Assembly: GCA_030448005.1 (NCBI GenBank)
Contig: JAUJNT010000003.1
Span: 295,061 to 359,060 of the forward strand
Source of the DNA: Thermoleophilaceae bacterium
Lineage (GTDB): Bacteria; Actinomycetota; Thermoleophilia; Solirubrobacterales; Thermoleophilaceae
DNA: 64,000 bases
Direction: 5' to 3'
Shown: in pieces, positions 13,977-51,670 of the stretch
Numbering within the stretch: the stretch's first letter is position 1
Layout: each line of letters starts with the position of its first letter
Made by a program: the position numbers and the translations under genes
The notes under the pieces: generated by a model
The model's database searches: none
Seen by the model: only the letters and a program-made list of their open reading frames with translations
What the model was told of the DNA's origin: nothing

Positions 13977-17526
<3,550 letters not shown>

Positions 17527-17542
17527 GCGCGCGACCAGGGGT

Positions 17543-34313: not shown

Positions 34314-34388
<75 letters not shown>

Positions 34389-34392
34389 CTCC

Positions 34393-34424
34393 AGAAAGCC
34401 CCGCTGCCACGGGGTTTTCTGCTT
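34393..34424 (+). terminator. Intrinsic terminator for tRNA-Met, carried by the element
   Basis: An 11-bp stem (AGAAAGCCCCG with CGGGGTTTTCT, one G-T pair) and a 6-nt loop (CTGCCA), then GCTT. It is just inside the left att site, so integration replaced the tRNA's native downstream sequence with an element-borne terminator. Confidence 0.7.
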
Positions 34425-34460
34425 ACCGGGGCGCGGTTGCCATCGGCGACATTTGGGTCT

Positions 34461-34481
34461 GGGTCGGCGCCTGGGTCGGCA
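34461..34481. repeat. Left subterminal repeat, candidate integrase arm site
   Basis: Two copies of GGGTCGGC spaced 11 bp, in a 21-bp block. It matches 38184-38203 near the other end except for a single-base indel. The position just inside the att site fits arm-type integrase or excisionase sites. Confidence 0.6.
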
Positions 34482-34522
34482 CCCCGCAATCCCGCCGCGC
34501 CGCCAGTCACCATCCCGACGCG

Positions 34523-34897
34523 ATGGGATCTCCCGCGAAGGTGCGCGAGGTGCTCGCCGAACGGCGGCAGGCCGGGCTGGACTTCGGCGCGGCGTGGCCG
34601 GCGGCGCTCGAGGCGCTCGAGCCTGCCGAGCGGACAGAGTGGCTTGAGACGCTCGAGGACACGAGGGCCGCATGGCGGGCTGCCTTCCGCGGCGAGCCGG
34701 CGACACGGGCCCAGTGGGCCCTTCACGCGGTGGGTGAGGATCCTGAGCGGGAGGTTGCTACCGGCCTACCCGATGCGTGGGAACGCTGCTGTCTGCTCTG
34801 TAGCGGCCTGATCCCCGCTCAGCGTGACCGGCGGGCGCTCTACTGCTCGCATCGCTGCCAGAGGCAGGCACACAGAGGCGGCCGGCTAGCCGCTTAG
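34523..34897 (+). CDS. Small zinc-finger protein of the element
   Basis: 124 residues. A helical N-terminal part (KVREVLAERRQAGLDFGAAW) is followed by a C-terminal Cys cluster: CLLC, then after about 18 residues YCSHRCQRQAHRGG. This Cys-X2-C...YCS-X2-C-X3-A-basic pattern occurs in small actinobacterial mobile-element proteins and likely binds zinc. Function unknown. Its TAG stop interlocks with the TAA of the opposite gene (TTAG). ATG 34523 is the first good start after the arm repeat. Confidence 0.7.
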   Translation: MGSPAKVREVLAERRQAGLDFGAAWPAALEALEPAERTEWLETLEDTRAAWRAAFRGEPATRAQWALHAVGEDPEREVATGLPDAWERCCLLCSGLIPAQRDRRALYCSHRCQRQAHRGGRLAA

Positions 34898-35538
34898 AGC
34901 TGTTCGCCAGCCAGGCGCGGGCGAGTAGGGCCGAGGAAGCCTTTCTCGCGTGCGCGCTGGACATACCTGCCGGCGGTCGAACGCGAAACGTGGAGTTCCT
35001 CCGCGACGGTTGCCGTAGGCGGCTTGCCTTCCACCAGGGCGGCACGGTAGGCGCGGGCGACATTTCGTAGCTCCTCGTCTCCTACCCGCCCTCCGCTGTA
35101 TTTGCGGCCGCCGGCGCCCTTCGCGGCTTGGAATTGCTTCGACCGCGGCAGGCCGACAACGGGGATCGCCACCCATTCATCGTCAATCCGGTAGTGGTGG
35201 ACGTGCGCATCCTCGCCGTCTTCAGTCACGAAGATTGGCTCCCCCGGCGCGGCTTGAATCGCCAGTTGCGTGGCTGCGTCAACCGCTAGGTCCACGTATG
35301 TCTTTAGGGGGATGTCCCGCAGAGCCGTCCCGGTGATTGGCTTCCCTTCGAGGCCTCGCTCGAGGCGGAGCTCTGTGCAGACCGGCCGGCCCCCCTCCAC
35401 AGCAACCTCTATGTGGCAGGTGGGGTCAGCCGAATTATCTGGCTCGATCGTCGCGCTGAAGCGGTTCCAGACGGCGTAGCCAGGTCGGTGGCGGATGAGT
35501 TCGGCGTCGGGGTGCGGCTCATTGATCGTCGCTTTCAT
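34894..35538 (-). CDS. Element protein with C-terminal helix-turn-helix
   Basis: 214 residues from ATG 35538. The N-terminal half is beta-rich (HIEVAVEGGRPVCTELRLE) with no known fold name. A linker containing GAGGRKYSGGRVGDEEL leads to a C-terminal HTH (ARAYRAALVEGKPPTATVAE, then HVSRSTAGRYVQRAREKGFL). This arrangement is typical of actinobacterial prophage and integrative-element proteins that may regulate or aid maintenance. It is divergent from the XRE gene, sharing a 113-bp operator region. Confidence 0.72.
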   Translation of the reverse strand: MKATINEPHPDAELIRHRPGYAVWNRFSATIEPDNSADPTCHIEVAVEGGRPVCTELRLERGLEGKPITGTALRDIPLKTYVDLAVDAATQLAIQAAPGEPIFVTEDGEDAHVHHYRIDDEWVAIPVVGLPRSKQFQAAKGAGGRKYSGGRVGDEELRNVARAYRAALVEGKPPTATVAEELHVSRSTAGRYVQRAREKGFLGPTRPRLAGEQL

Positions 35539-35651
35539 CTGAACCAGCCTTGCAGGTTGGCAACATCCTGTCAACGCTGGCTCAGTTTGCTGACTGGCTC
35601 AGATGCCGTCAGCCATGCGCCCAGCCGTCAACACTGTGCCACCCTTATGGC
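35539..35651. promoter_or_regulatory. Divergent control region with direct repeats
   Basis: The spacer between the HTH-protein and XRE genes is AT-richer than its surroundings. It has CTGGCTCAG twice (35577-35585, 35594-35602; 17 bp apart), GCCGTCA twice further right, and the short palindrome GTTGGCAAC. It looks like a regulator switch region; operators for the XRE protein are the obvious guess. Confidence 0.5.
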
Positions 35652-35903
35652 ATGACGACTCTCGCCGCTCCCCCGGTGACCGAGATCACACTCCTAATGG
35701 AAGCGCGAGAAGCGGCCCAGTCGGGCCGCGCCGCTCGACTGCGGAGCGCTGCCGGGCTTTCTCAGCGTGAAGTTGCCCGTGCGGTAGGTGTGACCGCCGG
35801 CTGCATCACGCGATGGGAGAGTGGGGAGCGACGCCCAACCGGACAGATGGCGGTCGAGTACGGCCGTGTGCTGCGCGAGATAGCGGAGGGCCTGCTGCGA
35901 TGA
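35652..35903 (+). CDS. XRE-family transcriptional regulator
   Basis: 83 residues with one lambda-repressor-like HTH: RAARLRSAAGLSQREVARAV, then GVTAGCITRWESGERRPTG. There is no extra ligand or protease domain. The position next to divergent promoters inside the element suggests a repressor or an excision/maintenance control protein. ATG 35652 follows TTATGGC. The stop overlaps a possible tiny ORF (ATGA). Confidence 0.78.
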   Translation: MTTLAAPPVTEITLLMEAREAAQSGRAARLRSAAGLSQREVARAVGVTAGCITRWESGERRPTGQMAVEYGRVLREIAEGLLR

Positions 35904-35932
35904 GCGCAGCCCTCTCCCTCCTGAAAGTCAAA

Positions 35933-35954
35933 GGCTCCGCGGTGGTGCGGAGCC
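35933..35954 (-). terminator. Strong hairpin in the element
   Basis: A perfect 8-bp stem GGCTCCGC/GCGGAGCC with a GGTGGT loop. On the minus strand it is followed by TTTGACTTTC, giving a partial U tract, so leftward transcripts may stop here; it may also act on the XRE transcript. Confidence 0.45.
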
Positions 35955-36026
35955 CTCGACAACGAACCACCTCGGCACCTGGAGTGCCGGAAGATGTGCG
36001 TTCAGGGTAGTCGCCTCGCCGGCAGT

Positions 36027-36131
36027 ATGGGCGGAGGCGCAGGCATCGCCTTGGTGGCCCGTCGTGGCCTTGCGCGGTTCTGGCGCAGGCGTCTCGCTGA
36101 GCTGGCGGACAGCAGAGGGACGGGCCGATGA
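36027..36131 (+). CDS. Tiny basic ORF, 34 aa, coupled to zinc-ribbon gene
   Basis: Starts ATGGGCGGAGG and reads GIALVARRGLARFWRRRLAE, a short amphipathic basic helix. Its stop overlaps the next gene's ATG (ATGA), the same coupling used elsewhere in the element. No ribosome-binding site is obvious and no family is known. Confidence 0.35.
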   Translation: MGGGAGIALVARRGLARFWRRRLAELADSRGTGR

Positions 36132-36394
36132 CTCGGATTCGCGCCGGCACCCTCGAGCACGGAGACACGCTCGTCTCGGCCGACGCCTGCAGCTTCTGCG
36201 GGGAGCGCGCCGCTAACGGGGCTTTCTGGATGGGCGCTCAAGAGATTGTCGTGTGTTCGATCTGCGCCGCCACTGGACAGCTTGGGAAGCTGCTCGGCGA
36301 TGCCGCGCACGATGCGGCAGCGCTCGAGCGCGCCTTGCAGGCAACCGCGCTTCAGGCGTGGCGGGCGCTTGCACTTGCGAAGGAGCGCGGATGA
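36128..36394 (+). CDS. Zinc-ribbon protein upstream of primase-polymerase
   Basis: 88 residues with CSFC and, 18 residues later, CSIC, a four-Cys zinc ribbon resembling the ClpX-type zinc-binding module. A helical C-terminus (ERALQATALQAWRALALA) follows. It overlaps the primase-polymerase start by 4 bp (ATGA), so it probably works with replication or its control. Confidence 0.65.
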   Translation: MTRIRAGTLEHGDTLVSADACSFCGERAANGAFWMGAQEIVVCSICAATGQLGKLLGDAAHDAAALERALQATALQAWRALALAKERG

Positions 36395-37425
36395 ACGCGA
36401 TCCCGACCGAGCTTCGAGACCTCGCACAGTGGGTGATCTGGCGTCGCGAGACTCGCGAGGGGAAGCCGACCAAGGTTCCCTACCGCGCCACCGGCCAAGG
36501 GCACGCCGCCGTGGACAACCCTGCAACCTGGGCCAGCTTCGAGCAGGCAATCCAAGCGTCCGCGAAGGCAGACGGGATCGGGTTCGTGTTCACCGCCGCA
36601 GATCCTTTTGTCGGCGTTGACCTGGACAACTGCTGCACAGACGGCCGGCTTCACCCGAAGGCCGCCGAAGTCCTTCTGCGGCTCGACTCTTACAGCGAGT
36701 TCAGCCAATCCGGGACGGGCGCGCACGTGATCGTCCGCGGGCAGCTGAACGGCACACGAAACCGGACAGGCAAAGCCCCCTGGGGAGGCGGCCTCGAGGT
36801 ATACGAGCGGGGCGGGTTCTTCTGTATGACCGGCGACCTGATCGCGGGGGCGCCGACATCCATTGAGCCCCGGCAGGCGGAGCTCGACCAGGTGCTCGAA
36901 GCCGTGCTGCCGCCCTCCCGGCCCAGCGCTGCGGCTCCGGTGCGTCCTACAGTGCCGGCGCTCCCCGACGACGCGGAGCTGCTGGAGCGCGCGCGATCGG
37001 CGAGAAACGGCGCCACCTTCGAGGGGCTTTGGCGAGGCGAGCTGAACGGGCACGCATCGCGGAGTGAGGCAGACCTCGCCTTCTGTAGCCTGCTCGCGTT
37101 CTGGGCCGGCCCGGACCCGGCGCGCATCGACCGGCTGTTCCGCTCTAGCGGCCTCATGCGCGACAAATGGGACACCCCCGCGGTGAATCCACTTATGGGG
37201 CGCAGACAATCGCCCGTGCGCTCGAAGGGCGCACTCAGTTCTTCGAGCCGAGGCAGCCCGCCCGGCCGGCTACTCCCACTCCCGGGGTTTCCTCCGTTCC
37301 CTCCGTTTCCTCCAAGGTTGATACGTGGCCAGAGCCGCCAGCCGAGGACGGCCGAAGGTGCAGGTGCGGGAGCAGTTCTACCGAGGCAAGCGCAGGCGGC
37401 TCAAGAGCGGCCACGGGCGCCGTGA
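36391..37425 (+). pseudogene. Primase-polymerase (NrS-1-like), frameshifted and truncated
   Basis: The N-terminal domain looks like the archaeo-eukaryotic primase-type polymerase of phage NrS-1 and actinobacterial elements: LAQWVIWRRETREGKPTKVP at the start, metal-binding DLDN (Asp77, Asp79), SGTGAH (residues 107-112) and GGLEVYERGGFF. A helix-bundle domain follows (FCSLLAFWAG, IDRLFRSSGLMRDKWD). After the run of five C at 37175-37179 the expected RGESTYGAQTIARALEG is in the -1 frame, so one C seems lost. That frame then reaches WPEPPAED, where homologues enter a helicase/DUF3987 region, absent here. Confidence 0.75.
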
Positions 37426-37789
37426 CGTCCCGCTATCGGCTGGGATGGCGGAACGGCTCAGGAGGCGCCGCAGGGACGCCTACGGGGGCGAGAGCGCGCC
37501 AGTGTTCGCATCGGTGACCGGGAGTGAGCTGCACCCCTCGAACGTGCGGAGCCGCGTGCTCGTGCCCGCGGTCGAGAGCGTGGGGCTCCCGTGGGTCACC
37601 TTCCATACGTTCAGGCACACGAGCGCTTCGCTTCTGTTCGACGGGGGCCGCAACGTCAAGCAGGTGCAGGAGTGGCTCGGCCACGCCGACCCGGGGTTCA
37701 CGTTGCGGACCTACGTGCATCTCCTCGATGACGGTCTTGGTGGAGCCGACTTCCTAGACGACGCGGTCGCCCTGCCGGTCGTCGCATAG
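37325..37789 (+). pseudogene. Tyrosine integrase, catalytic C-terminal fragment
   Basis: 154 codons of a phage-type integrase. Family sequence begins at GRPKVQVREQFYRGKRRRLKS, the beta-hairpin with the catalytic Lys. WVTFHTFRHTSASLLFDGG (HxxR), GHADPGFTLRTYVHLL (His and nucleophile Tyr) follow. The arm-binding and core-binding domains and the first catalytic Arg are missing. The break joins the WPEPPAED segment of the upstream gene around 37340-37355, so a deletion fused the two. Almost certainly inactive alone. Confidence 0.8.
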
Positions 37790-37934
37790 ACGGAGGCGCA
37801 GCGGCCTGGCCGAATCGGTGCACCGTGCCGCTTTCAGGCGAAAGGGGCAGTCCTGCGCGCAAGCGCACTCGCAGGCGAAAGCGGCAGCAGCGCACGGTGG
37901 AACCCGCACGTGGGCTGCGGCATACTGACCGACG
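37790..37934. repeat. Short direct repeats upstream of small membrane gene
   Basis: CAGGCGAAAGGGGCAG (37835-37850) and CAGGCGAAAGCGGCAG (37872-37887) are 37 bp apart and differ in one base. They could be regulator or integrase-accessory sites. Confidence 0.4.
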
Positions 37935-38162
37935 ATGAGCACCCGCTTCTGGAGTTCTCCCGCCGCGACCTGGCGGCTTGCGCGATTCGCCGTTATGGCT
38001 CTCGGTGGATTTCTCGCTCTACAGGGGATTGTGGACGCGTGGATCGCCATGGTTGTCGGCGTGGTCGTTGCCACCCTCTTGCTCATCGACGAGCTGCTCT
38101 CCCGCCGCCGTATCGCCCGCCGCGCCGGGATCACTGATCAGAGCGGCGGCGCTTCCCCTTAG
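37935..38162 (+). CDS. Small two-helix membrane protein at element right end
   Basis: 75 residues: LARFAVMALGGFLALQGIV and IAMVVGVVVATLLLIDELL form two membrane helices, with a basic RRRIARRAG tail. It lies between the integrase fragment and the right att site, the usual place for cargo. No toxin or immunity family recognised; a cargo, superinfection-exclusion or type I toxin-like role is only speculation. Confidence 0.6.
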   Translation: MSTRFWSSPAATWRLARFAVMALGGFLALQGIVDAWIAMVVGVVVATLLLIDELLSRRRIARRAGITDQSGGASP

Positions 38163-38183
38163 AGGCAAGAGCAGGAGTCAGCG

Positions 38184-38203
38184 GGGTCGGCGCCGGGTCG
38201 GCA
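38184..38203. repeat. Right subterminal repeat, candidate integrase arm site
   Basis: GGGTCGGC twice, spaced 10 bp, in a 20-bp block matching 34461-34481 apart from one missing base. It lies 108 bp inside the right att site. Confidence 0.6.
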
Positions 38204-38310
38204 GGCTGTACGGAAACAGCCGCAAACCAGGAGGCGTTCGCAGAGCTAGATTCGGCTCTGTAAAGCGGAAAACAGGGACCAGCCGCAACCCCCCGCAAGC
38301 TAGGGGGCAC

Positions 38311-38354
38311 ACTCATAATCCGTAGGTCCCAGGTTCGAGTCCTGGCCGGCCCAC
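38311..38354 (+). repeat. Right attachment site (attR), tRNA-Met 3' fragment
   Basis: The second 44-bp copy of the tRNA-Met 3' half, without a 5' half, so not a functional tRNA. Just upstream, CCCCC and GGGGG (38290-38306) can form a hairpin next to the crossover region. Confidence 0.92.
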
Positions 38355-38389: not shown

Positions 38390-40942
38390 CTAGAGGCGTG
38401 GGTCGACGGGCTCGCTCTCCAGCGCCAGCACGCCGAAGGCGCACTCATGGACGCGGTAGAGCGGTTCGCGCCTGACGAAGCGCTCGAGCGCCTCGACGCC
38501 GAGTCCGAACTCACGCACGGCCAGCGAGCGCTTGCGGCCGAGACCTCGACCGCGGAGTCGGTCGATCTGCGAGGGGTCCGCGTACTCCGGCCCGTAGATG
38601 ATACGCAGGTACTCCCGCCCACGGCACTTGATGCCCGGTTGGGCGAGCCCCTTTCGTCCGTGGGCAAGGAAGGACCAGGGCTTTACGACCATGCCCTCCC
38701 CACCTGCCCCGGTCATCGCCTCCCACCACGCTACCGCCTCGGCCTGGCTGGACTCGTCGGTGACGTCGACGACCCGCCGTTCGGTGTGCTGCAGCCAGTC
38801 GGGGTCCGCCGCTATGAGCTGATCGCACCGATCGAGGTGCCAGCCGTGGTCGCGGTCGACGAACACCCCGGACTCGGCGGCGAGCAGGTGAAAGGGGGCT
38901 AGCCGTAGATCGGCGATCCCATCCACCTGCCAGACGTAGCGCCGGTAGGACTCGGTGTAGCGCTCGACGTGCCCGGCGCGGACACGCTGACGGTCGAGCA
39001 GCCCGTCGAGCTCCAGCCCTCGCGCCGAGGCGGCTTCGAGCGTCGCGAGCGTGGCGCCGAGTCCGGCACGCGCGGCGGCTCCGACCGCCGCGTACTGGCG
39101 GCGCACCAGCTCCAGCGCCTTCGCCGACCAGGGCATCAGCTCGCAGTCGAGCAGGACCCAGCCCGTGCCGAGCTCGTCCCACAGCGAGCTCTGAGTGGCG
39201 GCCGTGCGGACACGGCTGAGGATGCCCTCGGTGAGGGCGCGATCGTCGAAGAACGGTCGGCCCGTGCGCGTGAAGACGGCGCCCGTGTCGCCCGTGTCGA
39301 CGCCGAAGCGCTGCCTGGCCACCTCGGCATCGCGGCAGACGATGACGATCGCCCGTGAGCCCATGTGCTTCTCCTCGCACACGACCCGGGCGACACCGCT
39401 CGAGCGGTACTCCGCGAAGGCCTCCGACGGATGCTCGAGCAGCTCGGGCCGCTGCGAGGTGGCGGTGGGCGCCATCGTCGGCGGCAGGTGGATCACCCAG
39501 CGGGGATCCATCGCAAAGCGGCTCATCACCTCGATCGCCGCCGTGGCCTGGTCCTCCCGGATGGTCACCGTCCGGGTCAGGCGCGTCTGGACGATGCGCT
39601 TGCCGGCCACGTCCTCGATGTCGAGGAGGAACGCGGGCCGGTCTTCCTGGGCGACACTCGGCGCGGCATCCTCGGGCGCCAGGAAGGGCTTCGCGGGCTC
39701 GTAGTACCTCCGGCGCGCCGGAACCGACACGAGCTCGCGCTCCGGCCAGCGCAGGGCGGTCAGCTTGCCGCCGAACACGCAGCCGGTGTCGATGTTGATC
39801 GTGTCGTTGAGCCACTCGGCCTCTGCCACGGGCGTGTGGCCGTACACGACCGCGGCGTGGCCGCGGTAGTCGCTTGCCCACCCGAGCCGTACGGGCAGGC
39901 CGAGCTCATCGGTCTCTCCGGTCGTCTCCCCGAAGAGAGCGAAGTCGCGGACCCGGCCCGAGGATCGGCCCTGGTACTCCTCCTTCATCCCGGCGTGCGC
40001 CACCACGAGACCGCCGCCGTCGAGCACGACATGGCTGACGAGCTTGTCGAGGAAGTCCCGGGCGCGCTCCCGGAACTCCGGAGGCCTGTGCTCGAGCTGC
40101 GCAAGCGACTCGGCGAGCCCGTGGGTGATGCGGACGTCGCGCCCCTTCAGCTTTCGGACGAGCTTGATGTCGTGGTTGCCCGGCAGGCAGATCGCGGTGC
40201 CCTGCTCGGACATGCGCATCACGAGCTCGAGGACCTTCGGCGTGTCGGGACCCCTGTCGACGTAGTCACCGACGAACACGGCTCGGCGGCCCTCGGGAGG
40301 CATCACGCCGACGCCGCCGGGCGCCACCTCGTATCCCAGCTCGCCGAGCAGCTCGACCAGCTCTCCGTAACAGCCATGCACGTCGCCGATCACATCGAAG
40401 GGCCCGGACTCGGCGCGCCTGTCGGTCCAGAGCGGCTTGCGGGTGATCTCCGCGGCGTCCACCTGCTCCGGCGTGCGCAGCACCCAGACGCGGCGGAACC
40501 CCTCGCGCCCGAGCCCCTTGAGCGACTTCTTCAGCTGCGAGCGCTGGCGGCGAACGACATGTGGGCCGAAGTTCCGGTTGGGCCGCATGTCATTGCGCTC
40601 CTGGCAGAGAGCCTCGGGCATGTCGAGCACCACGGCCACCGGGAACAGGTCGCGGCGCCTGGCAAGCTCGATCAGCGGCTTGCGCGCCTCGCGCTGCACG
40701 TTCGTGGCGTCGACCACGGTGAGGCGTGGCTGCGCGAGTCGAAGGTCCGCGATGAAGTTGAGGACCGCGAAGGCGTCCCCGGTGGCGGCTTGGTCGTTCT
40801 CGTCGTCGGCGACCAGCCCGCGGCAAAGGTCCGAGGAGATCACCTCCGTGGGCTTGAAGTGCGCGCGCGCGAACGAGCTCTTGCCCGACCCCGAAGGGCC
40901 GATGAGAACGACGAGGCTGGGATCGGGAAGGTCGATCCTCAC
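38390..40942 (-). CDS. pnkp: Polynucleotide kinase-phosphatase-ligase Pnkp (RNA repair)
   Basis: An 850-residue three-domain RNA end-healing and sealing enzyme of the bacterial Pnkp/Hen1 pathway, which repairs tRNAs cut by ribotoxins. Kinase: P-loop GPSGSGKSS (residues 15-23). Metallophosphoesterase: GDVHGCYGE (from 186), GDYVDRGPD (from 225), GNHD (from 255) and YGHTPV. Adenylyltransferase: Lys525 in CEEKHMGSRA, with ECELMPW-like LDCELMPW and EGMVVKPW downstream. Length and domain order match the family. The GTG start overlaps the hen1 stop by 4 bp. It ends 36 bp from the element's attR. Confidence 0.96.
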   Translation of the reverse strand: MRIDLPDPSLVVLIGPSGSGKSSFARAHFKPTEVISSDLCRGLVADDENDQAATGDAFAVLNFIADLRLAQPRLTVVDATNVQREARKPLIELARRRDLFPVAVVLDMPEALCQERNDMRPNRNFGPHVVRRQRSQLKKSLKGLGREGFRRVWVLRTPEQVDAAEITRKPLWTDRRAESGPFDVIGDVHGCYGELVELLGELGYEVAPGGVGVMPPEGRRAVFVGDYVDRGPDTPKVLELVMRMSEQGTAICLPGNHDIKLVRKLKGRDVRITHGLAESLAQLEHRPPEFRERARDFLDKLVSHVVLDGGGLVVAHAGMKEEYQGRSSGRVRDFALFGETTGETDELGLPVRLGWASDYRGHAAVVYGHTPVAEAEWLNDTINIDTGCVFGGKLTALRWPERELVSVPARRRYYEPAKPFLAPEDAAPSVAQEDRPAFLLDIEDVAGKRIVQTRLTRTVTIREDQATAAIEVMSRFAMDPRWVIHLPPTMAPTATSQRPELLEHPSEAFAEYRSSGVARVVCEEKHMGSRAIVIVCRDAEVARQRFGVDTGDTGAVFTRTGRPFFDDRALTEGILSRVRTAATQSSLWDELGTGWVLLDCELMPWSAKALELVRRQYAAVGAAARAGLGATLATLEAASARGLELDGLLDRQRVRAGHVERYTESYRRYVWQVDGIADLRLAPFHLLAAESGVFVDRDHGWHLDRCDQLIAADPDWLQHTERRVVDVTDESSQAEAVAWWEAMTGAGGEGMVVKPWSFLAHGRKGLAQPGIKCRGREYLRIIYGPEYADPSQIDRLRGRGLGRKRSLAVREFGLGVEALERFVRREPLYRVHECAFGVLALESEPVDPRL

Positions 40943-42321
40943 CGCTCGAAGACCGCCATCTGCGTGGGCGGGCCCACCTCGGGATCGTCGGGCCCCACGG
41001 GTATGAACCGCGCGGAGTACCCATGGCGGGTCCCGACCTGCTGCGCCCAGGCGGCGAACTCCTCACGCGTCCACTCGAAGCGGTGGTCGGGATGGCGCAG
41101 GTTGCCGGCAGGCAGCGTCTCCCAGCGCACGTTGTACTCGACGTTCGGCGTGGTCACGACCACGGTGCCGGGGCGGGCTGAGCCGAACACGTTCTGCTCC
41201 GCGGCTGCGAGGCGCGGCGGGTCGAGGTGCTCGATCACCTCGACGAGCGCGGCGGCGTCGTAGCCCACGAGCCGCTTGTCGCGGTACGTGAGCGGGCTGT
41301 GCAGGAGCTTGATCCGCTCACGCCGGTCGTCTGAGAGCGTGTCGAGCTTCAGGCGGCGGGCGGCCCGCTCGAGTGAGCGCACCGAGACATCGACGCCGAC
41401 GACCTCTTGGTAGCCCGCACGCATCAGCCGCGCGAGCAGCGCACCGGACCCGCACCCGAGGTCGAGCACCCGCCGAGCGCCGGAGGCTTCGAGCACCGAC
41501 TCGACCGTGCCGAGGCGCTGGTCGCGTAGGGACACGCGCTCCTCCAGGGCCTCTTCGCGCTCCTCGTCATCGCCGTGATCGGCAGTCGGCGCTGTTTCGT
41601 CGAGCTGCGCAAACGCCGGGTGGTAGAGCTGTGCCTGGTGCTTGAGGTAGCGCCGCACGATCAGGTCGCGCTCTGGGTGCTGACCGAGCCAGCCCTCGCC
41701 ACGGCGCATGAGCTTCTCGATCTCCGTGTCGTCCACCCAGTAGTGCTTGTCGTCGTCGAGCACCGGCAGCAGCACGTACAGGTGGTTGAGCAGGTCGGCC
41801 AGCCGCACCTCGGCCCGTAGGCGCAGCCCCACGTGGCGGCCCTCGCCCCACTCCGGGAATTGGGGATCGAGCTGCAGCGGCGTGGCATCCACCGAGTAGC
41901 CGAGCGGCTCGAAGAGACCTCGCACGAGCGATTCTCCGCCGCGAGCGGGGACGGCCGGCAATGACGCTTCGAGCGGGATCGCCGAGCCGACGAGCTCGGG
42001 GCGCTCCTTGCACGTGCCCGCCATGGCGGTCTTGAACACGTTCACCAGCCCGACCGACATGAAGGACGACGCCGCGTACGGGCGGTCGTTCACGTACTCG
42101 GCGAGCGCGAAGGAGCCCGCGCCGCTACCGCGGCGCACGAGCCCGACCGGATCGACGTCCACGAGCAGGGCGACACGGCAGAGCTCCCGCGACGCCTCCG
42201 GGTAGAAGACGTGCGCCTGGCCGAACGGCAGCCCGAAGGTCTGCGGACGCTCCGGATGCTTGTGCAGCAGGAATCCCAGGTCGGTGGCCGGGCGGTGGGT
42301 CGTCGAGATGGTCAGTAGCAC
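40939..42321 (-). CDS. hen1: 3'-terminal RNA ribose 2'-O-methyltransferase Hen1
   Basis: 460 residues. The N-terminal half is the Hen1-specific domain that works with Pnkp ligase (LGFLLHKHPERPQTFGLPFG, YVNDRPYAASSFMSVG). The C-terminal half is a SAM methyltransferase (RVLDLGCGSGALLARL) with the Mn-binding ALVEVIEHLD segment and TTPNVEYNVRW. It methylates the 2'-OH at the break before sealing so the repaired site resists recutting. GTG 42321 precedes LLTISTTHRPATDLGFLL, the normal family start. Confidence 0.95.
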   Translation of the reverse strand: MLLTISTTHRPATDLGFLLHKHPERPQTFGLPFGQAHVFYPEASRELCRVALLVDVDPVGLVRRGSGAGSFALAEYVNDRPYAASSFMSVGLVNVFKTAMAGTCKERPELVGSAIPLEASLPAVPARGGESLVRGLFEPLGYSVDATPLQLDPQFPEWGEGRHVGLRLRAEVRLADLLNHLYVLLPVLDDDKHYWVDDTEIEKLMRRGEGWLGQHPERDLIVRRYLKHQAQLYHPAFAQLDETAPTADHGDDEEREEALEERVSLRDQRLGTVESVLEASGARRVLDLGCGSGALLARLMRAGYQEVVGVDVSVRSLERAARRLKLDTLSDDRRERIKLLHSPLTYRDKRLVGYDAAALVEVIEHLDPPRLAAAEQNVFGSARPGTVVVTTPNVEYNVRWETLPAGNLRHPDHRFEWTREEFAAWAQQVGTRHGYSARFIPVGPDDPEVGPPTQMAVFER

Positions 42322-42338
42322 GTCCCCGACCCTATTCG

Positions 42339-42383
42339 GCGGGGCAGCCCCGCGGCGGCCTATCGTGACGCGGCGTGCGTCAC
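42339..42383. promoter_or_regulatory. Palindromes in the hen1 / AGPS divergent region
   Basis: GCGGGGC-A-GCCCCGC (42339-42353) and GTGACG-7 nt-CGTCAC (42365-42383) lie in the 111 bp between divergent genes. They are symmetrical enough to be operators controlling either direction. Confidence 0.45.
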
Positions 42384-42432
42384 TGGTCCATCCCAGAGGG
42401 TGGCGAGCGCACGGGCGCGGTACGGTCTGGCG

Positions 42433-44163
42433 ATGAGCGCATCGGTACGGGTTCCGGATGCACGACAGGCGCAACCTCCTGCAGCGGTCAACGGAAGGAA
42501 GGCTGCCGCCGGAATGAAGTGGTGGGGCTGGGGCCAGGAGGGGATCTCCTTCACCCACGAGGACAAGCCCGCTCTGCGTCCGTTCATCATGCGCCACCTC
42601 GGCCTGGACATGGAGAGGACAACCTCTCGGCCCGTCGCCTTCGAGGACCTCGACATCCCCGCCCCCGCTGTCGGCGCCGAGCTGCGAGGGGCCCTCGAGC
42701 GGGCCGTCGCGGTCGAGCGGGTCTCGACAGACCCCCTCGACCGGGTGATCCACGCCCGCGGCAAGAGCCTCCGGGACCTCGTGCGCCACCGCCGCGGCGA
42801 GCTCGGCCGGCTCCCCGACGTGGTGCTGCGACCGCGCGACGAGGAGGAGGTCACCGCCATCCTGCGAGCCGCCCTCGAAGCCGACGCCGTCGTGATCCCC
42901 TTCGGCGGCGGCACCAGCATCTCCGGGAGCCTCGAGGCGCGGCCGGCCGAGACCCGCACCGTGATCTCGGTGGACCTCGGCCTGCTGGACCGGGTGTTGG
43001 CGATCGACGACGCGTCGCGTCTTGCGCGCGTGCAGTCCGGTGTCTTCGGCCCGCACCTCGAGAAGCAGCTGAACGCGCAGGGGTTCACGCTCGGGCACTT
43101 TCCGGACAGCTTCACCCACTCGACGCTCGGGGGCTGGATCGCCACCCGCTCGTCAGGGATGCAGTCGGACCGCTACGGCGACATGGCCGACCTGACGCGG
43201 GGGCTTCGGGTGGTCACCCCCTCGGGGATGCTTGTGACCCGACCGGTGCCGAGCACGTCGACGGGCCCGAGCGTGCGGGAGATGGTGCTGGGCAGCGAGG
43301 GACGGTTGGGCATCATCACCGAGGCCACCGTGCACGTCCGCCGCCTTCCCGCCCGCCGGACGATCCTCGGCTACCTCTTCCCCTCCTGGGCTGAGTCGCT
43401 CGCCGCTATGCGCGACATCGCCGCAAGCGAGGCCTCGCCCTCGGTGACCCGCGTTTCGGATGCCAACGAGACGCAGTTCTCCCTTGCCACGAAGAAGAAG
43501 GACACGCTGGTCGACCGCCTCAAGTCGAAGGCGCTGAAGGAATACCTCGAGCGCCGGCGCGGCTTCGACGTCGAGGCCATGTGCCTTTCGTTCATCGGCT
43601 ACGAGGGCGGCGAGAGGCACATCGCGGCGCAACGCAAGCTCGTCGGTTGCATCGTCGCCCGCCACGGCGGCCTCTGCGTGGGCGAGGGCCCCGGTTCGCT
43701 CTACGACCAGAAGAAGTTCGACACTCCCTACATCCGCGACTACCTGCTCGATCGCGGAGCGCTGGGCGACGTGTCGGAGACCGCCGCGCCGTGGAGTGCG
43801 CTTCCGCTCGTGTACGACAACGTGGCGACCTCGGCCCACGGCGCCTTCGACGACCTCGGCGTACGGGGATACCTGATGTGCCACCTGTCGCACTCCTACC
43901 ACGCGGGCGCGTGCCTCTACTTCACGTTCGCCTTCAAGCCATCCGGGAAGCGAGACGGGCTGGAGGAGTATGACGCCGTCAAGTCCGCGATACAGCAGGC
44001 GTTCGTGGACTCCGGCGCCACGCTCTCCCACCACCACGGTGTGGGCACCGAGCACGCGAGCTGGCTCGAGCAGGACATCTCGGCGCCGGGCGTGCTGATG
44101 TTGCGGGCGCTCTTCGACGGCGCCGACCCGGGAGCCAACCTCAACCCGGGGAAGATCGTCTGA
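42433..44163 (+). CDS. FAD-binding oxidase, alkylglycerone-phosphate synthase-like
   Basis: A 576-residue VAO/PCMH-type flavoprotein resembling alkyl-DHAP synthase, which swaps an acyl for an alkyl group to make the ether bond. MKWWGWGQEGISF, the FAD segment VVIPFGGGTSISG, FPDSFTHSTLGGWIATRSSG and the active-site histidines in LSHHHGVGTEHASWL match AGPS. ATG 42433 chosen; GTG 42400 is also in frame. It leads a lipid-related operon with plsC and an SDR. Confidence 0.88.
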   Translation: MSASVRVPDARQAQPPAAVNGRKAAAGMKWWGWGQEGISFTHEDKPALRPFIMRHLGLDMERTTSRPVAFEDLDIPAPAVGAELRGALERAVAVERVSTDPLDRVIHARGKSLRDLVRHRRGELGRLPDVVLRPRDEEEVTAILRAALEADAVVIPFGGGTSISGSLEARPAETRTVISVDLGLLDRVLAIDDASRLARVQSGVFGPHLEKQLNAQGFTLGHFPDSFTHSTLGGWIATRSSGMQSDRYGDMADLTRGLRVVTPSGMLVTRPVPSTSTGPSVREMVLGSEGRLGIITEATVHVRRLPARRTILGYLFPSWAESLAAMRDIAASEASPSVTRVSDANETQFSLATKKKDTLVDRLKSKALKEYLERRRGFDVEAMCLSFIGYEGGERHIAAQRKLVGCIVARHGGLCVGEGPGSLYDQKKFDTPYIRDYLLDRGALGDVSETAAPWSALPLVYDNVATSAHGAFDDLGVRGYLMCHLSHSYHAGACLYFTFAFKPSGKRDGLEEYDAVKSAIQQAFVDSGATLSHHHGVGTEHASWLEQDISAPGVLMLRALFDGADPGANLNPGKIV

Positions 44164-44219
44164 GGCCCCGCTTCACGACGCTGAGAAACCCGCGCGAGCG
44201 GCGGGAGTACTTCCAGGAC

Positions 44220-45098
44220 ATGCCTGAGGGAGGATCCAGTGGTCTGGCGACCGAGGCGCGGCCAGGGTTCGGGGAGACGGGCCGCGATTGTGCAAGCCTC
44301 GACGTGCCCTGGGCGCGCCGCGGACTGGCGCGCGGGGTGCGTGAGTTGATCCTGTGTGGGGTGCTGGGCCCCGCAATGGTGCTCTACACCCGCCGCACGG
44401 TCGTCGGAAAAGAGCGCCTGCTAGATCTCGAGGCGCCGGTCCTCTTCGTGGCCAACCACTCGAGCCACATGGACACGCCGGCCATCCTGCGGGCCCTACC
44501 GGGCAGGTGGCGCCGGCGCACGGCGGTAGCGGCCGCCGCGGACTACTTCTACCGCAAGCGCGGCGTTGCGCAGATCATGTCGCTGGTGTTCAACACGGTT
44601 CCCGTGCGGCGAGACGGCGGTGGCCTCGCGCCCGGGTCGGCCTCACATCTGGACCGGCTGATCGAGGAGCGCTGGAACCTGCTGCTCTTTGCCGAGGGCA
44701 CACGGTCGCGCGACGGCATCGTCGGGCGGCTGCGCTCGGGCGCAGCTGTGCTGGCGGCCGAGCACGGCCTGCATATCGTGCCGATCCACGTGTCGGGTAC
44801 CCGCGACGCGATGCCCCGGGGGCGAAAGTGGATGCATCGCAAGCGGGGACGCCCCGGCTCGCGCCGCCACCCGACCGAGATCCGGTTCGGGCCTCCGATC
44901 CGACCGCGTGAGGGCGAGAGCCGTGCCGAGGTCATGGAGCGGGTGCGCGTGTTCCTCGCGGCGTCCGGAGCCTCCACGACGCCGGACGAGCGAAGCCTCG
45001 TGCGTGACGCGGGCCCCGGCGCTCGGGTGCCCGCCGAGCCCGGGCGCCCCGCAGTCGGGCCCCGCGCCGAGGCCGGGCGGCCGCCGGTGCACCCGTAG
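44220..45098 (+). CDS. PlsC-type lysophospholipid acyltransferase
   Basis: A 1-acyl/alkyl-glycerol-3-phosphate acyltransferase-like protein. The catalytic NHSSHMD is near residue 82, the glycerophosphate-binding EGTRSR near 160, and VPIHVSGT after it. 292 residues with an extra N-terminal segment and a Pro/Arg-rich C-terminus. Downstream of the AGPS-like gene, it would fit acylating sn-2 of an ether lipid. Confidence 0.87.
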   Translation: MPEGGSSGLATEARPGFGETGRDCASLDVPWARRGLARGVRELILCGVLGPAMVLYTRRTVVGKERLLDLEAPVLFVANHSSHMDTPAILRALPGRWRRRTAVAAAADYFYRKRGVAQIMSLVFNTVPVRRDGGGLAPGSASHLDRLIEERWNLLLFAEGTRSRDGIVGRLRSGAAVLAAEHGLHIVPIHVSGTRDAMPRGRKWMHRKRGRPGSRRHPTEIRFGPPIRPREGESRAEVMERVRVFLAASGASTTPDERSLVRDAGPGARVPAEPGRPAVGPRAEAGRPPVHP

Positions 45099-45100
45099 CC

Positions 45101-46111
45101 GTGGCGCGCGTATTTGTCACAGGTGGAAGCGGCTTCATCGGCGGCGCCCTCGTCGGCACGCTGCTCGAGCGGGGCGACGAGGTGGTGGCCCTCGCTCGCT
45201 CCGCGGCCACGGCCCGCGCGCTTGCGGGCCGCGGGACCGAGGTGGTGCAGGGCGACGTGCTGGATGAAGACGCCCTCGCGGCGGGCATGTCGGGGTGCTC
45301 GCTGGCCTATCACGTCGCCGGAGTCAACTCGCACTGCCCGTCTGACCCCGCGATGCTCATGCGCGTCAACGTGGGTGGGGCCGTCGCAGCGGTGCGGGCA
45401 GCCGCCCGGGCGGGTGTCGGCCGGGTGGTGTACACGTCCTCGGCGGCATCGCTCGGGGAGCCGGTCGGCGCCGTGGGACGCGAGGACACGCCCCACCGGG
45501 GCTCATACCTGTCCGTCTATGACCGGTCCAAGCACGAGGGCGAGCGGGCCGCCTTCGGGGCGGCGCGGCACGCAGGGGTCGAGCTGGTGGCCCTCAATCC
45601 CTCTTCGGTACAAGGGCCCGGGCGCTCTGGCGGAAACGGAAAGATCGTGATCGCCTATCTGAACGGGCGGCTTCCGGTCTTCGTGGACACCTGGATCAGC
45701 CTCGTTGACATCGACGACTGCACGCAGGGCCACCTGCTGGCCGCCGAGCGGGGGCGCGCCGGAGAGCGCTACGTGCTGAACGGCTCGACGATCACCTCTG
45801 ACGAGGCGCTCGAGATCATCTCGCAGCTTGCCGGGGTGCGCGACCGCGTTCGCATCGTCCCACCGTGGGTGGCCAGGACCGCCGCCGCGCTCGCCGAGGG
45901 CGCCTCCCGGGCGCGGCGCCGCACGTCGCCCGTTTGCAGGGCGAGAGTGCGCACGATCCTGCACGGCCACCGCTACGACGGCTCGCGCGCGACGGAGGAG
46001 CTCGGCCTGAGCTATACCCCCGTCGCGCACACCTTCCGGCGGACCATCGATTGGGCCGTGGCGGAAGGACTCGTCACGCGCCCACTGCCGCGCGGCACCT
46101 CGCCTAGCTGA
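45101..46111 (+). CDS. Extended SDR: NAD-dependent epimerase / 3-beta-HSD-like reductase
   Basis: 336 residues. Rossmann motif VFVTGGSGFIGGALV at the N-terminus, YHVAGVNSH, catalytic YTSSAAS and YDRSKHEGE (Tyr/Lys). It resembles dihydroflavonol reductase/3-beta-hydroxysteroid dehydrogenase-type enzymes. Starting 2 bp after plsC, it probably reduces an intermediate in the same lipid pathway. It overlaps the small basic gene tail-to-tail. Confidence 0.85.
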   Translation: MARVFVTGGSGFIGGALVGTLLERGDEVVALARSAATARALAGRGTEVVQGDVLDEDALAAGMSGCSLAYHVAGVNSHCPSDPAMLMRVNVGGAVAAVRAAARAGVGRVVYTSSAASLGEPVGAVGREDTPHRGSYLSVYDRSKHEGERAAFGAARHAGVELVALNPSSVQGPGRSGGNGKIVIAYLNGRLPVFVDTWISLVDIDDCTQGHLLAAERGRAGERYVLNGSTITSDEALEIISQLAGVRDRVRIVPPWVARTAAALAEGASRARRRTSPVCRARVRTILHGHRYDGSRATEELGLSYTPVAHTFRRTIDWAVAEGLVTRPLPRGTSPS

Positions 46112-46409
46112 AGAACCCGCGCGGCACCGGGCGCCTGCTCGGGCTCATCGGCGCGTCGGGATCGACCTCCCTGGCCTCGTCCTCCTCCTTGCCGTCCGGG
46201 CGCTTATACACGAAGCGGCTGGGGTGGGACTCGCCCTTGATCCCTCTGAAGTAACCACTGGTCCCGGGCATTCCCTCATCGGGCTCGGCCTGCTGCCACC
46301 CGGTGTCCCAGACGTTCTTCTTGCCGGACTTGCCGCGCTTCTCCTGCTTGGCCTCCGGTGCCTTCTGGGACATCGACGGGCTGCTCTTTTTACGGAATGG
46401 CATCTTCAC
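46104..46409 (-). CDS. Small basic protein A (GYxxGxK / RPDGK type)
   Basis: 101 residues, Lys/Arg/Ser-rich and probably disordered. MKMPFRKKSS at the start; GMPGTSGYFRGIKG and YKRPDGKEED in the middle. The same skeleton occurs in the 85-residue protein at 46873-47130, so the two are paralogues. Highly charged with no membrane segment. It might bind nucleic acid or ribosomes, but nothing proves this. Confidence 0.7.
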   Translation of the reverse strand: MKMPFRKKSSPSMSQKAPEAKQEKRGKSGKKNVWDTGWQQAEPDEGMPGTSGYFRGIKGESHPSRFVYKRPDGKEEDEAREVDPDAPMSPSRRPVPRGFFS

Positions 46410-46512
46410 GCTCTCGACTCCTTGATTCGAGTTTTCCGGGCCGGCAGAGCAGCGCCAGCCCGCGCCGATGGACCGACATCCGGGTTGTAGCCGAGTAGGG
46501 CGTCATACGTAA

Positions 46513-46549
46513 GTGCGATTCGCACCTAGCAGGCGAGCTGGCGCGCCAG
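46513..46549. promoter_or_regulatory. Two palindromes between divergent small genes
   Basis: GTGCGA-T-TCGCAC (46513-46525) and CTGGCGCGCCAG (46538-46549) sit in the spacer between small protein A (leftward) and the Cys-rich ORF (rightward). Candidate operators. Confidence 0.5.
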
Positions 46550-46589
46550 GGGACGTTTCGTACCCAGACAGAAGGGGAGACTCCAGTTT

Positions 46590-46835
46590 ATGAAGGCATG
46601 CTGCCCACCCGGAGAGGGGTGCAACGGGCCAACTGGGTACCAGGATCCGTGCGCCCTGTACCTCTGTCGCCGCAGCCGGCGCCCGGAGGCAGAGCGCGCA
46701 CTGCGGCTGTGGGAGCGCTTCGACGAGGCACGGCGAGACCAGGCATCACGTCATCACCGTCGGACCCTCCGGCGGGCCTACCAGCGCACGCGTGACAAGG
46801 CGGTGTCCTCCCCCTGGACACCCACCGCTGCCTGA
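46590..46835 (+). CDS. Small Cys-rich ORF, 81 aa
   Basis: Begins MKACCPPGEGCNG with further Cys at PCALYLC, then a long Arg-rich helix (LRLWERFDEARRDQASRHH). AAGGGGAG lies about 12 bp upstream of the ATG, and third-position G+C is fairly high. The N-terminal cysteines could bind a metal. No family recognised; it lies between the two paralogous small basic genes. Confidence 0.5.
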   Translation: MKACCPPGEGCNGPTGYQDPCALYLCRRSRRPEAERALRLWERFDEARRDQASRHHRRTLRRAYQRTRDKAVSSPWTPTAA

Positions 46836-46872
46836 GCGGCATTGCTGCTCAGACAGCGGGCGGCGCGAGCGG

Positions 46873-47130
46873 CTACCCGAACCAGCGCTTCTTCTTGATC
46901 ACCTTGTCCGGCTTGCCGTCGGGACGGCGGGTCAGGAAGAAGGTGGGCAGAGCGGTCTTCGGACCGTTGGGGTAACCGGCCGAGCCCGGGAAGCCGTCCG
47001 ACCCCGTGTTCTGGGCGAGTTCACGATCCGCCACCGCCCGCTTCTGCGGCTGGGCCTGCCTCTGCATCTTGCGATTGGAACCGCCTGCCCCGCGTCCCTG
47101 GGGGGCCTTGCTCTTCCTCCCGAACTTCAT
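46873..47130 (-). CDS. Small basic protein B, paralogue of protein A
   Basis: 85 residues. MKFGRKSKAPQGRG at the start, GFPGSAGYPNGPKT and LTRRPDGKPDKVIKKKRWFG toward the end, matching protein A in GxPGxxGYxxGxK and RPDGK. It has AAAGGAG at ideal spacing before the ATG, so it is well expressed or at least well initiated. Role unknown. Confidence 0.75.
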   Translation of the reverse strand: MKFGRKSKAPQGRGAGGSNRKMQRQAQPQKRAVADRELAQNTGSDGFPGSAGYPNGPKTALPTFFLTRRPDGKPDKVIKKKRWFG

Positions 47131-47276
47131 GTACGAGCTCCTTTGTTTGTTGAACTGCGACCGGCGCGCCCATGTTCCCAGGGACGGCGCCTATGTGCAA
47201 GGCGCATCTACTGGCGCGTGGATCTTCGCCTGCTCGGTGCAACCGGGCCTCGAGGGAGGCGTTAGCCTCGCGCGGC

Positions 47277-48974
47277 GTGGCTTCGCAGCTGATCCCTTGG
47301 TGGCGCTCGGGGGTGGTGCTCCAGGTCTACCCGCGCTCGTTCGCCGACTCGAACGGCGACGGGGTGGGCGACCTCGCGGGCGTGACCTCGAGGCTGGACC
47401 ACCTCGTCGACCTCGGCGTGGACGCGGTCTGGCTATCTCCCTTCTACCGCTCGCCGATGGCGGACTTCGGCTACGACGTGAGCGATTACAGGGACGTCGA
47501 CCCGACCTTCGGCACGCTCGCAGACGCCGACGCCCTGCTCGAAGGCGCGCACGCGCGTGGGCTACGGGTGATCTTCGACTGGGTTCCCAACCACACCTCG
47601 GACCAGCACGAGTGGTTCCTGGCCTCCCGCTCGAGCCGCGTCGACCCCAAGCGCTCCTGGTATGTATGGCGCGATCCGGGACCCGGCGGCGCACCTCCCA
47701 ACAACTGGATCTCGAACTTCAAGCTCCACGGCGACGTGCCGGCCTGGACCTTCGACGCGCACACGGGCCAGTCCTACCTGCACTCGTTCCTCCCCGAGCA
47801 GCCAGACCTCAACTGGGACGACCCCGAGGTACCCCAGGCGATGCACGACGTCCTTCGCTTCTGGCTCGACCGCGGGGTCGACGGGTTCCGCATCGACGTC
47901 GCGCACGCGCTGGGCAAGGACCCCGAGCTGGGCGACGACGAGCCGGGCCGGCCCCATCACGAGGACTGGCCGAGCGTCCACCCCCGGCTGCGCGCGATCC
48001 GCGGCGTGCTCGAGGAGTACGAGGGCGACCGGATGGCCGTCGGCGAGGTCTACCTGCTCGACCAGAAGGCCCTCGCGCCGTACGTGAGCACCGGCGACGA
48101 GCTGCACATGGTGCACAACTTCGTCTTCCTCAACCTGCCCTGGTCGGCCGCCGGGTTCCGCGCGACCGTCGATGAGTTCGAGGAGCTCGCCGGACCGGGG
48201 GCGTGGCCCGCGTGGTGCCTGGGAAACCACGACCACTCCCGGATCGCGACCCGCTACGGCCCCGGCCCCGCCCGTGTGGCGGCGATGCTGCTGCTGACCC
48301 TTCGGGGCACGCCGTTCCTCTTCCAGGGAGACGAGCTCGGGCTGACCGACGTCGAGGTGCCGCCCGACCGGGTGGTCGATGTGGATGGGCGCGACCCCGA
48401 GCGAGCCCCGATCCCGTGGGCGCCCCCCTCGAGCGCCGGCCCCGGAGCCGGGTTCACCACCGGCGAGCCATGGCTGCCGGTCACTCCCGACGCCGAGCGG
48501 GTGGCCGCCTCGGTGCAGGCGCACGACCCCGAGTCGATGCTCTCCCTTCACCGGGAGCTGCTGGCGCTTCGCCGCGCCACCCCCGCGCTGCGAGACGGCT
48601 CCTACCGCGCGCTCGAGGCCGGCGAGGACATCTACGCCTACGAGCGCGGGGGAGAGGTCACCGTGGCGCTCAACTTCGCCCGGGAGCCGCGCGCGGTTGA
48701 TGCGACCGGCCGGGGCGTGCTTGTGCTCTCGACTCGCCCCGGCAGGAAACGCGGCGGGGAGGTGGACCTTGCCGACCTGGTGCTCGAAGCCGACGAGGGA
48801 GTGATCGTCGCAAGCGCGCCCCGGGGCGGGAGTCGCGCGCCGCTGGGGCGGGAGTCGAGCGCGGCTAGGGCGGGAGCCGCCGTCCCGGCCTTCGGACGCG
48901 CAGCCAGCGGAAGTCGTGAGGCTCGAGGTCGAGCTTCGCACACCCGCCGTCCAGCCCGTGCACGTCAGCGCTGA
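47277..48974 (+). CDS. GH13 alpha-glucosidase (oligo-1,6-glucosidase type)
   Basis: 565 residues. YPRSFADSNGDGVGDLAGV at the N-terminus, nucleophile Asp in GVDGFRIDVAHALG, acid/base Glu in MAVGEVYLLD, transition-state Asp in CLGNHDHSRI. It fits the GH13 subgroups that hydrolyse alpha-glucosidic oligosaccharides. The last 35 or so residues (Arg/Ala-rich) read antisense through the end of the neighbouring GH13 gene, a 110-bp tail overlap, so the natural stop may have been lost. GTG 47277 chosen at ASQLIPWWRSGV; no good ribosome-binding site. Confidence 0.85.
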   Translation: MASQLIPWWRSGVVLQVYPRSFADSNGDGVGDLAGVTSRLDHLVDLGVDAVWLSPFYRSPMADFGYDVSDYRDVDPTFGTLADADALLEGAHARGLRVIFDWVPNHTSDQHEWFLASRSSRVDPKRSWYVWRDPGPGGAPPNNWISNFKLHGDVPAWTFDAHTGQSYLHSFLPEQPDLNWDDPEVPQAMHDVLRFWLDRGVDGFRIDVAHALGKDPELGDDEPGRPHHEDWPSVHPRLRAIRGVLEEYEGDRMAVGEVYLLDQKALAPYVSTGDELHMVHNFVFLNLPWSAAGFRATVDEFEELAGPGAWPAWCLGNHDHSRIATRYGPGPARVAAMLLLTLRGTPFLFQGDELGLTDVEVPPDRVVDVDGRDPERAPIPWAPPSSAGPGAGFTTGEPWLPVTPDAERVAASVQAHDPESMLSLHRELLALRRATPALRDGSYRALEAGEDIYAYERGGEVTVALNFAREPRAVDATGRGVLVLSTRPGRKRGGEVDLADLVLEADEGVIVASAPRGGSRAPLGRESSAARAGAAVPAFGRAASGSREARGRASHTRRPARARQR

Positions 48975-50538
48975 ACAGGTCGATCAGAGCCTCGGCGTCG
49001 CCCGGACGGTCGAGCTCGATCGTCACCTTGGCCTTCTTGCCACCCAGCTCATGGACTGCCACGATCGTGGAGCCCTCCCAGTCGCAGCGGTGCAGGAGCA
49101 CCGACGGCGCGCCGCCATCGAGTACCTCGAGCGTGCCGAAGCCGATCTCTGGGCATTCCCGCCGGCGGCGGATGAGCCGCTCGAACCAGTTGAGCAGGGA
49201 GCCGTGGTCGCGGCGCTGCCGGGTCACGTTGACCTTTGCGGGCCCGAATCGGTCGTCGTCGGTGACCGGGCGGCACAGCGCGTCCGCCACGGGCATGGTC
49301 GAGAACCCGGCGTTTGGCTCATCTGACCACTGCATCGGGGAGCGCACGCTCAGGCGCCCCTCGATCGCCAGGTTCTCGCCCATCCCGATCTCCTCGCCGT
49401 AGAAGAGCACGGGTGTGCCGGGAAGGGAGAAGGCAAGGCTGTAGACCATGCGGATCGCCTGCTGGTCTGCGTCGAGCATCGGCGGCAGGCGACGGCGCAG
49501 GCCCCGGTCGTAGAGCTGCAGCGACTCGTCCGGTCCGAAGGCGGCGAACACCTCCTCGCGCTCTGCCTTTGAGAGCTTGTCGAGCGTCAGCTCGTCGTGG
49601 TTTCGCACGAAGCGTCCCCACTGGCAGTCCGTCGGAATCTCAGGGGCCTCGCGGAGCGCGTTGCGAAGCGGCTCGGCCTCCCCGCGCGCGAGCGCCAGGT
49701 ACATCGACTGCATGCCGAAGAAGTCGAACAGCATGTGCAGCTCATCGCCGTCCTCGTCGCCGAAGAACTCGCGCGCGACAGGCGGCTCGAGGTTCACCTC
49801 CCCTAGCAGCATCGCCTCGCCGTTCCGGCGTGAGGCAAACGCGCGCAGGTCGCGCATCAGCTCATGCGGGTCCACCATGGCGCCCTCCGGCATGCCCATC
49901 GGCTCGAGCATGAAGGGCACCGCGTCCACGCGGAAGCCCGAGAGCCCCTGCTCGAGCCAGAAGCCCATCACCTGCGCGATCTCGTCGCGGACGGCGGGGT
50001 TGGCCACGTTCAGGTCGGGCTGGTGGGAGTAGAAGCGGTGGAGGTAGAACTGCTCCGCCCGCTCGTCCCACGCCCAGTTGGAGCTCTCCTTGTCCGGGAA
50101 GACGACGTCCCCGGGCTTCTCCTCGGGCTTCTCATCGGACCACACGTAGAAGTCGCGGTAGGGCGAGTCGCGGTCGGCGCGCGCGGCCTGAAACCAGGGG
50201 TGCTGATCGGAGGTGTGGTTCATCACGAGGTCGGCGATCACCCGTATGCCGCGGTCGCGTGCGGTGCGCACGAACTCGACGAAGTCGCCGTGGGTGCCCA
50301 GCCGCGGATCGACGGCGTAGAAGTCGGAGATGTCATAGCCGTCGTCGAGTCCGGGGGACTCGTAGAAGGGCATCAGCCACACGCACGACACGCCCATGCC
50401 GCCGAGGTAATCGAGCCGGTCGGTCAGCCCGCGCAGGTCCCCGCAGCCGTCGCCGTCGGAGTCGTAGAAGGTCTCGACGTCAAGGCAGTACACCACCGCG
50501 TTCTTCCACCACAGATCGCTCGTGGCCTTGAGGCTCAT
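48865..50538 (-). CDS. GH13 trehalose synthase-like enzyme
   Basis: 557 residues. WKNAVVYCLDVETFYDSDGD resembles the maltose alpha-glucosyltransferase (trehalose synthase, GH13_16) N-terminus. Nucleophile in LSGFRVDAVPFML, acid/base in MLLGEVNLEP, third Asp in FVRNHDELTLDKLSKAE; a beta-sandwich C-domain follows. It may interconvert maltose and trehalose or be a related glucosyltransferase. ATG 50538 overlaps the LLM stop by 4 bp. Confidence 0.85.
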   Translation of the reverse strand: MSLKATSDLWWKNAVVYCLDVETFYDSDGDGCGDLRGLTDRLDYLGGMGVSCVWLMPFYESPGLDDGYDISDFYAVDPRLGTHGDFVEFVRTARDRGIRVIADLVMNHTSDQHPWFQAARADRDSPYRDFYVWSDEKPEEKPGDVVFPDKESSNWAWDERAEQFYLHRFYSHQPDLNVANPAVRDEIAQVMGFWLEQGLSGFRVDAVPFMLEPMGMPEGAMVDPHELMRDLRAFASRRNGEAMLLGEVNLEPPVAREFFGDEDGDELHMLFDFFGMQSMYLALARGEAEPLRNALREAPEIPTDCQWGRFVRNHDELTLDKLSKAEREEVFAAFGPDESLQLYDRGLRRRLPPMLDADQQAIRMVYSLAFSLPGTPVLFYGEEIGMGENLAIEGRLSVRSPMQWSDEPNAGFSTMPVADALCRPVTDDDRFGPAKVNVTRQRRDHGSLLNWFERLIRRRRECPEIGFGTLEVLDGGAPSVLLHRCDWEGSTIVAVHELGGKKAKVTIELDRPGDAEALIDLFSADVHGLDGGCAKLDLEPHDFRWLRVRRPGRRLPP

Positions 50539-51503: not shown

Positions 51504-51530
51504 GGGTGGAGGCTACCCGCGGAAGGGCCT

Positions 51531-51655: not shown

Positions 51656-51670
51656 TTTGCGGCGCCTGCC

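Follow-up and report, generated by a model that had tools for sequence, protein, structure and literature searches.

Tyrosine-integrase elements that target tRNA genes include genomic islands and AICE-like elements with Prim-Pol replication. An AICE combines an integrase, a Rep or Prim-Pol replication gene and an FtsK/SpoIIIE transfer gene, and fragments retaining two or fewer of these components are treated as likely or possible AICE remnants, according to the part of PMC3218068 used here. Replication genes of the NrS-1 type have been characterized biochemically. As reported in the portion of PMC7102993 consulted, NrS-1 polymerase without its C-terminal region retains polymerisation and priming, and priming depends critically on its helix-bundle domain. 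The locus described here resembles tRNA-targeting and AICE-like elements in its att repeat from a tRNA 3' end, in an integrase adjoining att, and in a replication gene and small regulators inside; unlike them, its integrase is truncated and its length is at most half that of intact relatives (7.3-10.2 kb). No FtsK/SpoIIIE transfer gene was found among the eight scanned ORFs of the element, so it is not itself an AICE; by the definitions in that portion of PMC3218068, it falls in the known, ordinary class of AICE-type remnants. We consider, with a probability of about 0.83, that it carries a scar within the remnant of a replicating element once integrated at tRNA-Met, the later loss having most likely occurred by one illegitimate deletion.

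The window (the whole 64,000-nucleotide stretch of DNA analysed) is part of contig C6 of a 3.23 Mb genome. Within it, exact 44-bp direct repeats of the tRNA-Met 3' end lie at both ends of a 3,966 bp element, with the integrase adjoining one of them (Table 1). The 20-bp core of the repeat occurs at two places in the window, both of them att sites, against 0.04 expected by chance, and the syntenic tRNA-Met stretches of three relatives (L101, L102 and L103, from G002, G001 and G005) each have a single place that matches both window repeats. The exact repeat at tRNA-Met and the single matching place in relatives together mark 34389-38354 as a roughly 4-kb integrated element, which a tyrosine integrase would have placed in the tRNA-Met gene. 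It contains a small ORF with cysteines, two HTH proteins, a further small ORF, and the primase-polymerase and integrase remnants; DNA at 34537-34683 shares 75% identity with the corresponding end of L009, an intact element carried by contig C2 of this genome. In another genome of the genus (L100 11073-16274, G002:C3) the identical 44-bp att sequence surrounds about 5.1 kb of unrelated genes, adjoining tRNA-Met and a different integrase (16424-17593). Beyond attR, the window (38400-54000) holds about 16 kb more before 54.1 kb than G001 and G005, where the genes of window 54.1-59.6 kb sit within several kb of tRNA-Met; this extra stretch may be further lineage-specific DNA.

Table 1. Coordinates of features of the integrated element and its target, in window positions.
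Feature	Position	Strand	Source
tRNA-Met gene (CAT), intact, integration target	34314..34389	+	ARAGORN
attL, 44-bp exact direct repeat, 3' part of tRNA-Met	34345..34388	+	
Small ORF, cysteines near C-terminus	34523..34897	+	
HTH protein, DUF6214-like	34894..35574	-	
XRE/HTH_3-type regulator (ORF bounds; true start may be 35653)	35550..35903	+	
Small CxxC ORF ahead of primase-polymerase	36128..36394	+	
NrS-1-type primase-polymerase: catalytic domain and first part of helix-bundle domain	36391..37176	+	
Continuation in another frame: rest of helix-bundle domain, linker, WPEPPAED	37167..37349	+	
Probable deletion scar: primase-polymerase reading to 37349, integrase reading from 37346	37344..37354	+	
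Integrase remnant, second half of catalytic domain, with HTFRH, LGHA, TYVHL	37346..37789	+	
About 400 bp absent from intact relative, with 75-aa ORF; right edge approximate	37769..38170	+	
Displaced integrase C-terminal tail, ...TETAANQEAFAELDSAL-stop	38206..38262	+	
Single CCGCAAAC motif	38220..38227	+	
CCGCAA-N4-CCGCAA, candidate integrase arm-type site	38283..38298	+	
attR, second copy of 44-bp repeat	38311..38354	+	

The left half of the junction is the remnant of an NrS-1-type primase-polymerase, and not a working member of that group. It matches the solved NrS-1 primase chains (6k9a; phmmer E 6.6e-35) and PHROG 1829 (phrog_1829; E 1.7e-77), and like other members (PF22763; PHROG 1829) it has a catalytic domain followed by a helix-bundle domain; unlike them, it has a helix bundle interrupted by a frameshift and no longer carries the C-terminal helicase region, which was lost at 37349, where the integrase remnant comes next. 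The Pfam profile for the NrS-1 polymerase helix-bundle domain (HBD, PF22763) is matched from 1 to 39 of its 64 positions by 36391-37185 (E 4e-19) and from 41 to 64 by the shifted frame 37167-37344 (E 0.0017, alone under the curated cut-off), which places a frameshift near 37176. Since the helix bundle is broken as well as the C-terminal region removed, little activity would be expected from what remains. The source genome is the only carrier of this gene among 61 near relatives, and carriers number 21 among the 396 phylum genomes (E 1e-5) and 5 among the 399 class genomes (E 1e-10), the source genome included in each case. The best identity to the window primase-polymerase across these three sets is 51%, and one close relative was found in viral contigs. 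A tblastn search with the linker (37176-37346) gave one weak plasmid match (E 4) and no phage match.

What normally follows the helix bundle can be seen in relatives of the primase-polymerase. A Pfam scan placed a helicase-type region after this domain in 13 of 14 relative ORFs (six DUF3987, four AAA_25, two DUF927 and one D5/DUF5906), and the fourteenth (L046) continues for about 620 residues with no Pfam match. This count leaves out L049, a near-copy of L050, and ORFs excluded as disrupted, truncated at contig ends, partial or distant (L057-L063, L043, L013, L117, L118); among these, L117 has an AAA_25 helicase part in an overlapping frame and L118 stops at a contig end. The primase-polymerase reading in the window stops at WPEPPAED (encoded by 37326-37349), which in alignment falls at the beginning of the DUF3987-type region of L122, L119, L121 and L123. 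In L119, from the same class, the linker reads PPTPLCEAAYHG ahead of DUF3987. The equivalent linker reads WPEPLSESAFHG in L122, a primase-polymerase fusion on a viral contig that is 35% identical to the window protein in its N-terminal part and 40-42% identical to L119 and L121 at this point. Eight residues alone would be a weak signal, and these count by their position. The expectation of the first-pass annotation that homologues carry a helicase/DUF3987 region after this point is thus borne out by the 13 of 14 ORFs and by this alignment. A WPEP-type helicase-start pattern, in viral contigs only, gave three stretches, and no plasmid match was returned when the beginning of the L119 helicase was used as a tblastn query. 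That no DUF3987 gene was found elsewhere in the source genome speaks for a deletion. Short helicase-free family models do exist, such as PHROG 13901 (341 positions), whose best phage match is a gene of 2,343 bp.

The right half is the second half of a tyrosine integrase catalytic domain. It contains HTFRH, LGHA and TYVHL, which we take to be the HxxR, H/LGH and Tyr catalytic motifs, and the stretch 37325-37786 matches Phage_integrase (PF00589) from position 60 to 169 of 172 (E 1.6e-12). With the match beginning at position 60, the N-terminal DNA-binding domains are absent, as is the segment with the first catalytic arginine. Aligned over 140 aa with residues 238-377 of the complete L083 integrase (G002:C6, same genus), the remnant shows 72% identity, and DNA homology to that gene starts at 37349 (E 1e-72); its identity to the L009 integrase (432 aa) is 55%. 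Everything ahead of the catalytic beta-hairpin is missing, about 237 residues by comparison with L083, as had been proposed from the sequence at first reading. Close relatives of this integrase were not found in viral contigs.

The two halves meet at one point. WPEPPAED abuts GRPKVQV (37346-37366), with the two readings overlapping by 4 nt in different frames, and the first-pass annotation was correct about this meeting. The truncated homologies on both sides of the join are far beyond chance, and the coincidence of the end of primase-polymerase homology with the start of integrase homology supports a deletion. Such a deletion would have begun where the helicase region begins and ended midway through the integrase catalytic domain; the gene remnants left by it are out of frame with each other and share at most a few bases at the join. 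A short microhomology would fit the 4-nt overlap but is not proved by it. A deletion joining the two genes, also the initial proposal, is the best reading, and the single event is favoured by parsimony. The description of the genes as fused does not hold: an in-frame primase-integrase fusion protein was considered and rejected, because the frames differ at the junction and no fused protein can result.

The size of the lost segment can be estimated from relatives. After the point equivalent to the join there are 398 codons in L119 and 412 in L122, and these helicase codons together with the roughly 237 lost integrase codons give a minimum loss of about 1.9 kb. Intact elements between att repeats measure 7,331 bp in L046 (at tRNA-Val), 9,845 bp in L009 and 10,211 bp in L083, against 3,966 bp here, and in all three the replication gene precedes the integrase. 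The equivalent interval is about 3.9 kb in L046; in L009 and L083, the beginning of the helicase domain and the integrase point lie about 6.2 kb and about 7.3 kb apart, respectively. These intervals suggest that the lost block was about 4-7 kb; the 1.5-2.5 kb first put forward lies near the minimum and falls short of the size that intact relatives point to. A near-identical intact copy for mapping the end points was not found among the 61 near-relative, 396 phylum and 399 class genomes.

Different origins of the junction have been weighed against a deletion. It is unlikely that illegitimate recombination between two integrative elements, one contributing the primase-polymerase and the other the integrase, made the join. 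The closest intact integrase relatives, L083 and L009, do belong to elements with an AAA_25-type replication protein and not this primase-polymerase, and tRNA sites draw several islands, as the other genes within the same 44-bp repeat in G002:C3 illustrate. However, L046 has a primase-polymerase and then an integrase on the same strand between its att repeats, replication modules vary freely among relatives, and the att arm on the integrase side fits the integrase clade, which shows this end of the element to be undisturbed. The frameshift, and in principle also the scar, could be assembly errors. The frameshift adjoins a short run of C, which speaks for a consensus error in a metagenome-type assembly, but the genome is in 9 contigs with 96% completeness, the scar sits in unique sequence with an intact att repeat on either side, and each half has one near-identical place in the genome only; joining two truncated genes would, moreover, require a misassembly and not a base error. 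An assembly or consensus origin for either feature is very improbable.

The least credible of these alternatives, with hardly any weight in our assessment, is that the 154-aa integrase ORF (GTG at 37325) is a functional stand-alone protein of conserved short architecture. The reading frame is uninterrupted up to its stop codon and still encodes the second half of the catalytic motifs, but it lacks the segment with the first catalytic arginine, and none of 19 related loci begins at the residue where the remnant starts: in 14 the integrase homology continues further upstream (some in other frames), three are cut by contig ends, and the remaining two (L079 and L082) stop at residue 172-175. Intact homologues with this short integrase, the finding that the first reading had named as decisive against a deletion, were thus looked for and not seen among these 19 loci, and a conserved short form is rejected. 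Under the deletion reading, the element would be unable to produce a complete integrase or a replicase with its helicase, and would by itself be fixed in place. The wider point is that a single join can knock out replication and excision together although the att sites remain perfect, a route to a fixed genomic scar. Overall, the case is one of ordinary island decay.

Further decay is seen in the helix-bundle frameshift and in about 400 bp placed in the 3' end of the integrase gene. The integrase match ends at 37768, and the tail of the L083 integrase (CTQTAANADGAKAADSAL...) is matched about 400 bp further on, by the displaced tail listed in Table 1. Across 61 genomes, the only full-length match to the intervening DNA is this DNA itself; nine other genomes have matches of 22-53 bp. 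Its 75-aa ORF (37935-38162, plus strand) has no family match at E 0.001 and, judged by eye, is probably membrane-spanning. No clear target duplication or terminal repeat was found around this DNA, the best being 5 and 7 bp.

Between the displaced tail and attR lies the paired motif CCGCAA-N4-CCGCAA, which occurs once in the window and in none of 100 shuffles. In the 852 kb examined it is found at three distinct places once overlapping loci are removed (10 hits in all): in the window, at L009 4148-4163 and at L083 69-84. In each it sits 12-13 bp ahead of an att core, although the three cores derive from different tRNA 3' ends, and an extra CCGCAAAC precedes the pair by 63 bp (window and L083) or 75 bp (L009). 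None of 18 other loci (L065-L082, some with short stretches) has the pair within 1.2 kb past the integrase. The motif may be the integrase arm site of this clade, for which it offers a simple and testable candidate. Because the window element shares it with the intact L009 element, the remnant might be a satellite-like passenger, excised or moved in trans by the L009 integrase. The differing att core and the far att arm, where GGGCAAC repeats seen by eye in L083 and L009 are absent in the window, argue against easy rescue, and we regard this as quite unlikely.

L083 itself shares with the window a related integrase, the integrase C-terminal tail and the paired motif ahead of att; it differs in having an att derived from another tRNA, an AAA_25 replication protein and a phage tape-measure-like gene. 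The last (L083 2556-4373; PHROG 1535, E 8e-21) lies between 36-bp att repeats (20-55 and 10231-10266), and L083 is possibly a defective prophage. Elsewhere in the window, a second tyrosine-recombinase-like gene is present at 19507-20334, with about 29-33% identity to the integrases of relatives.
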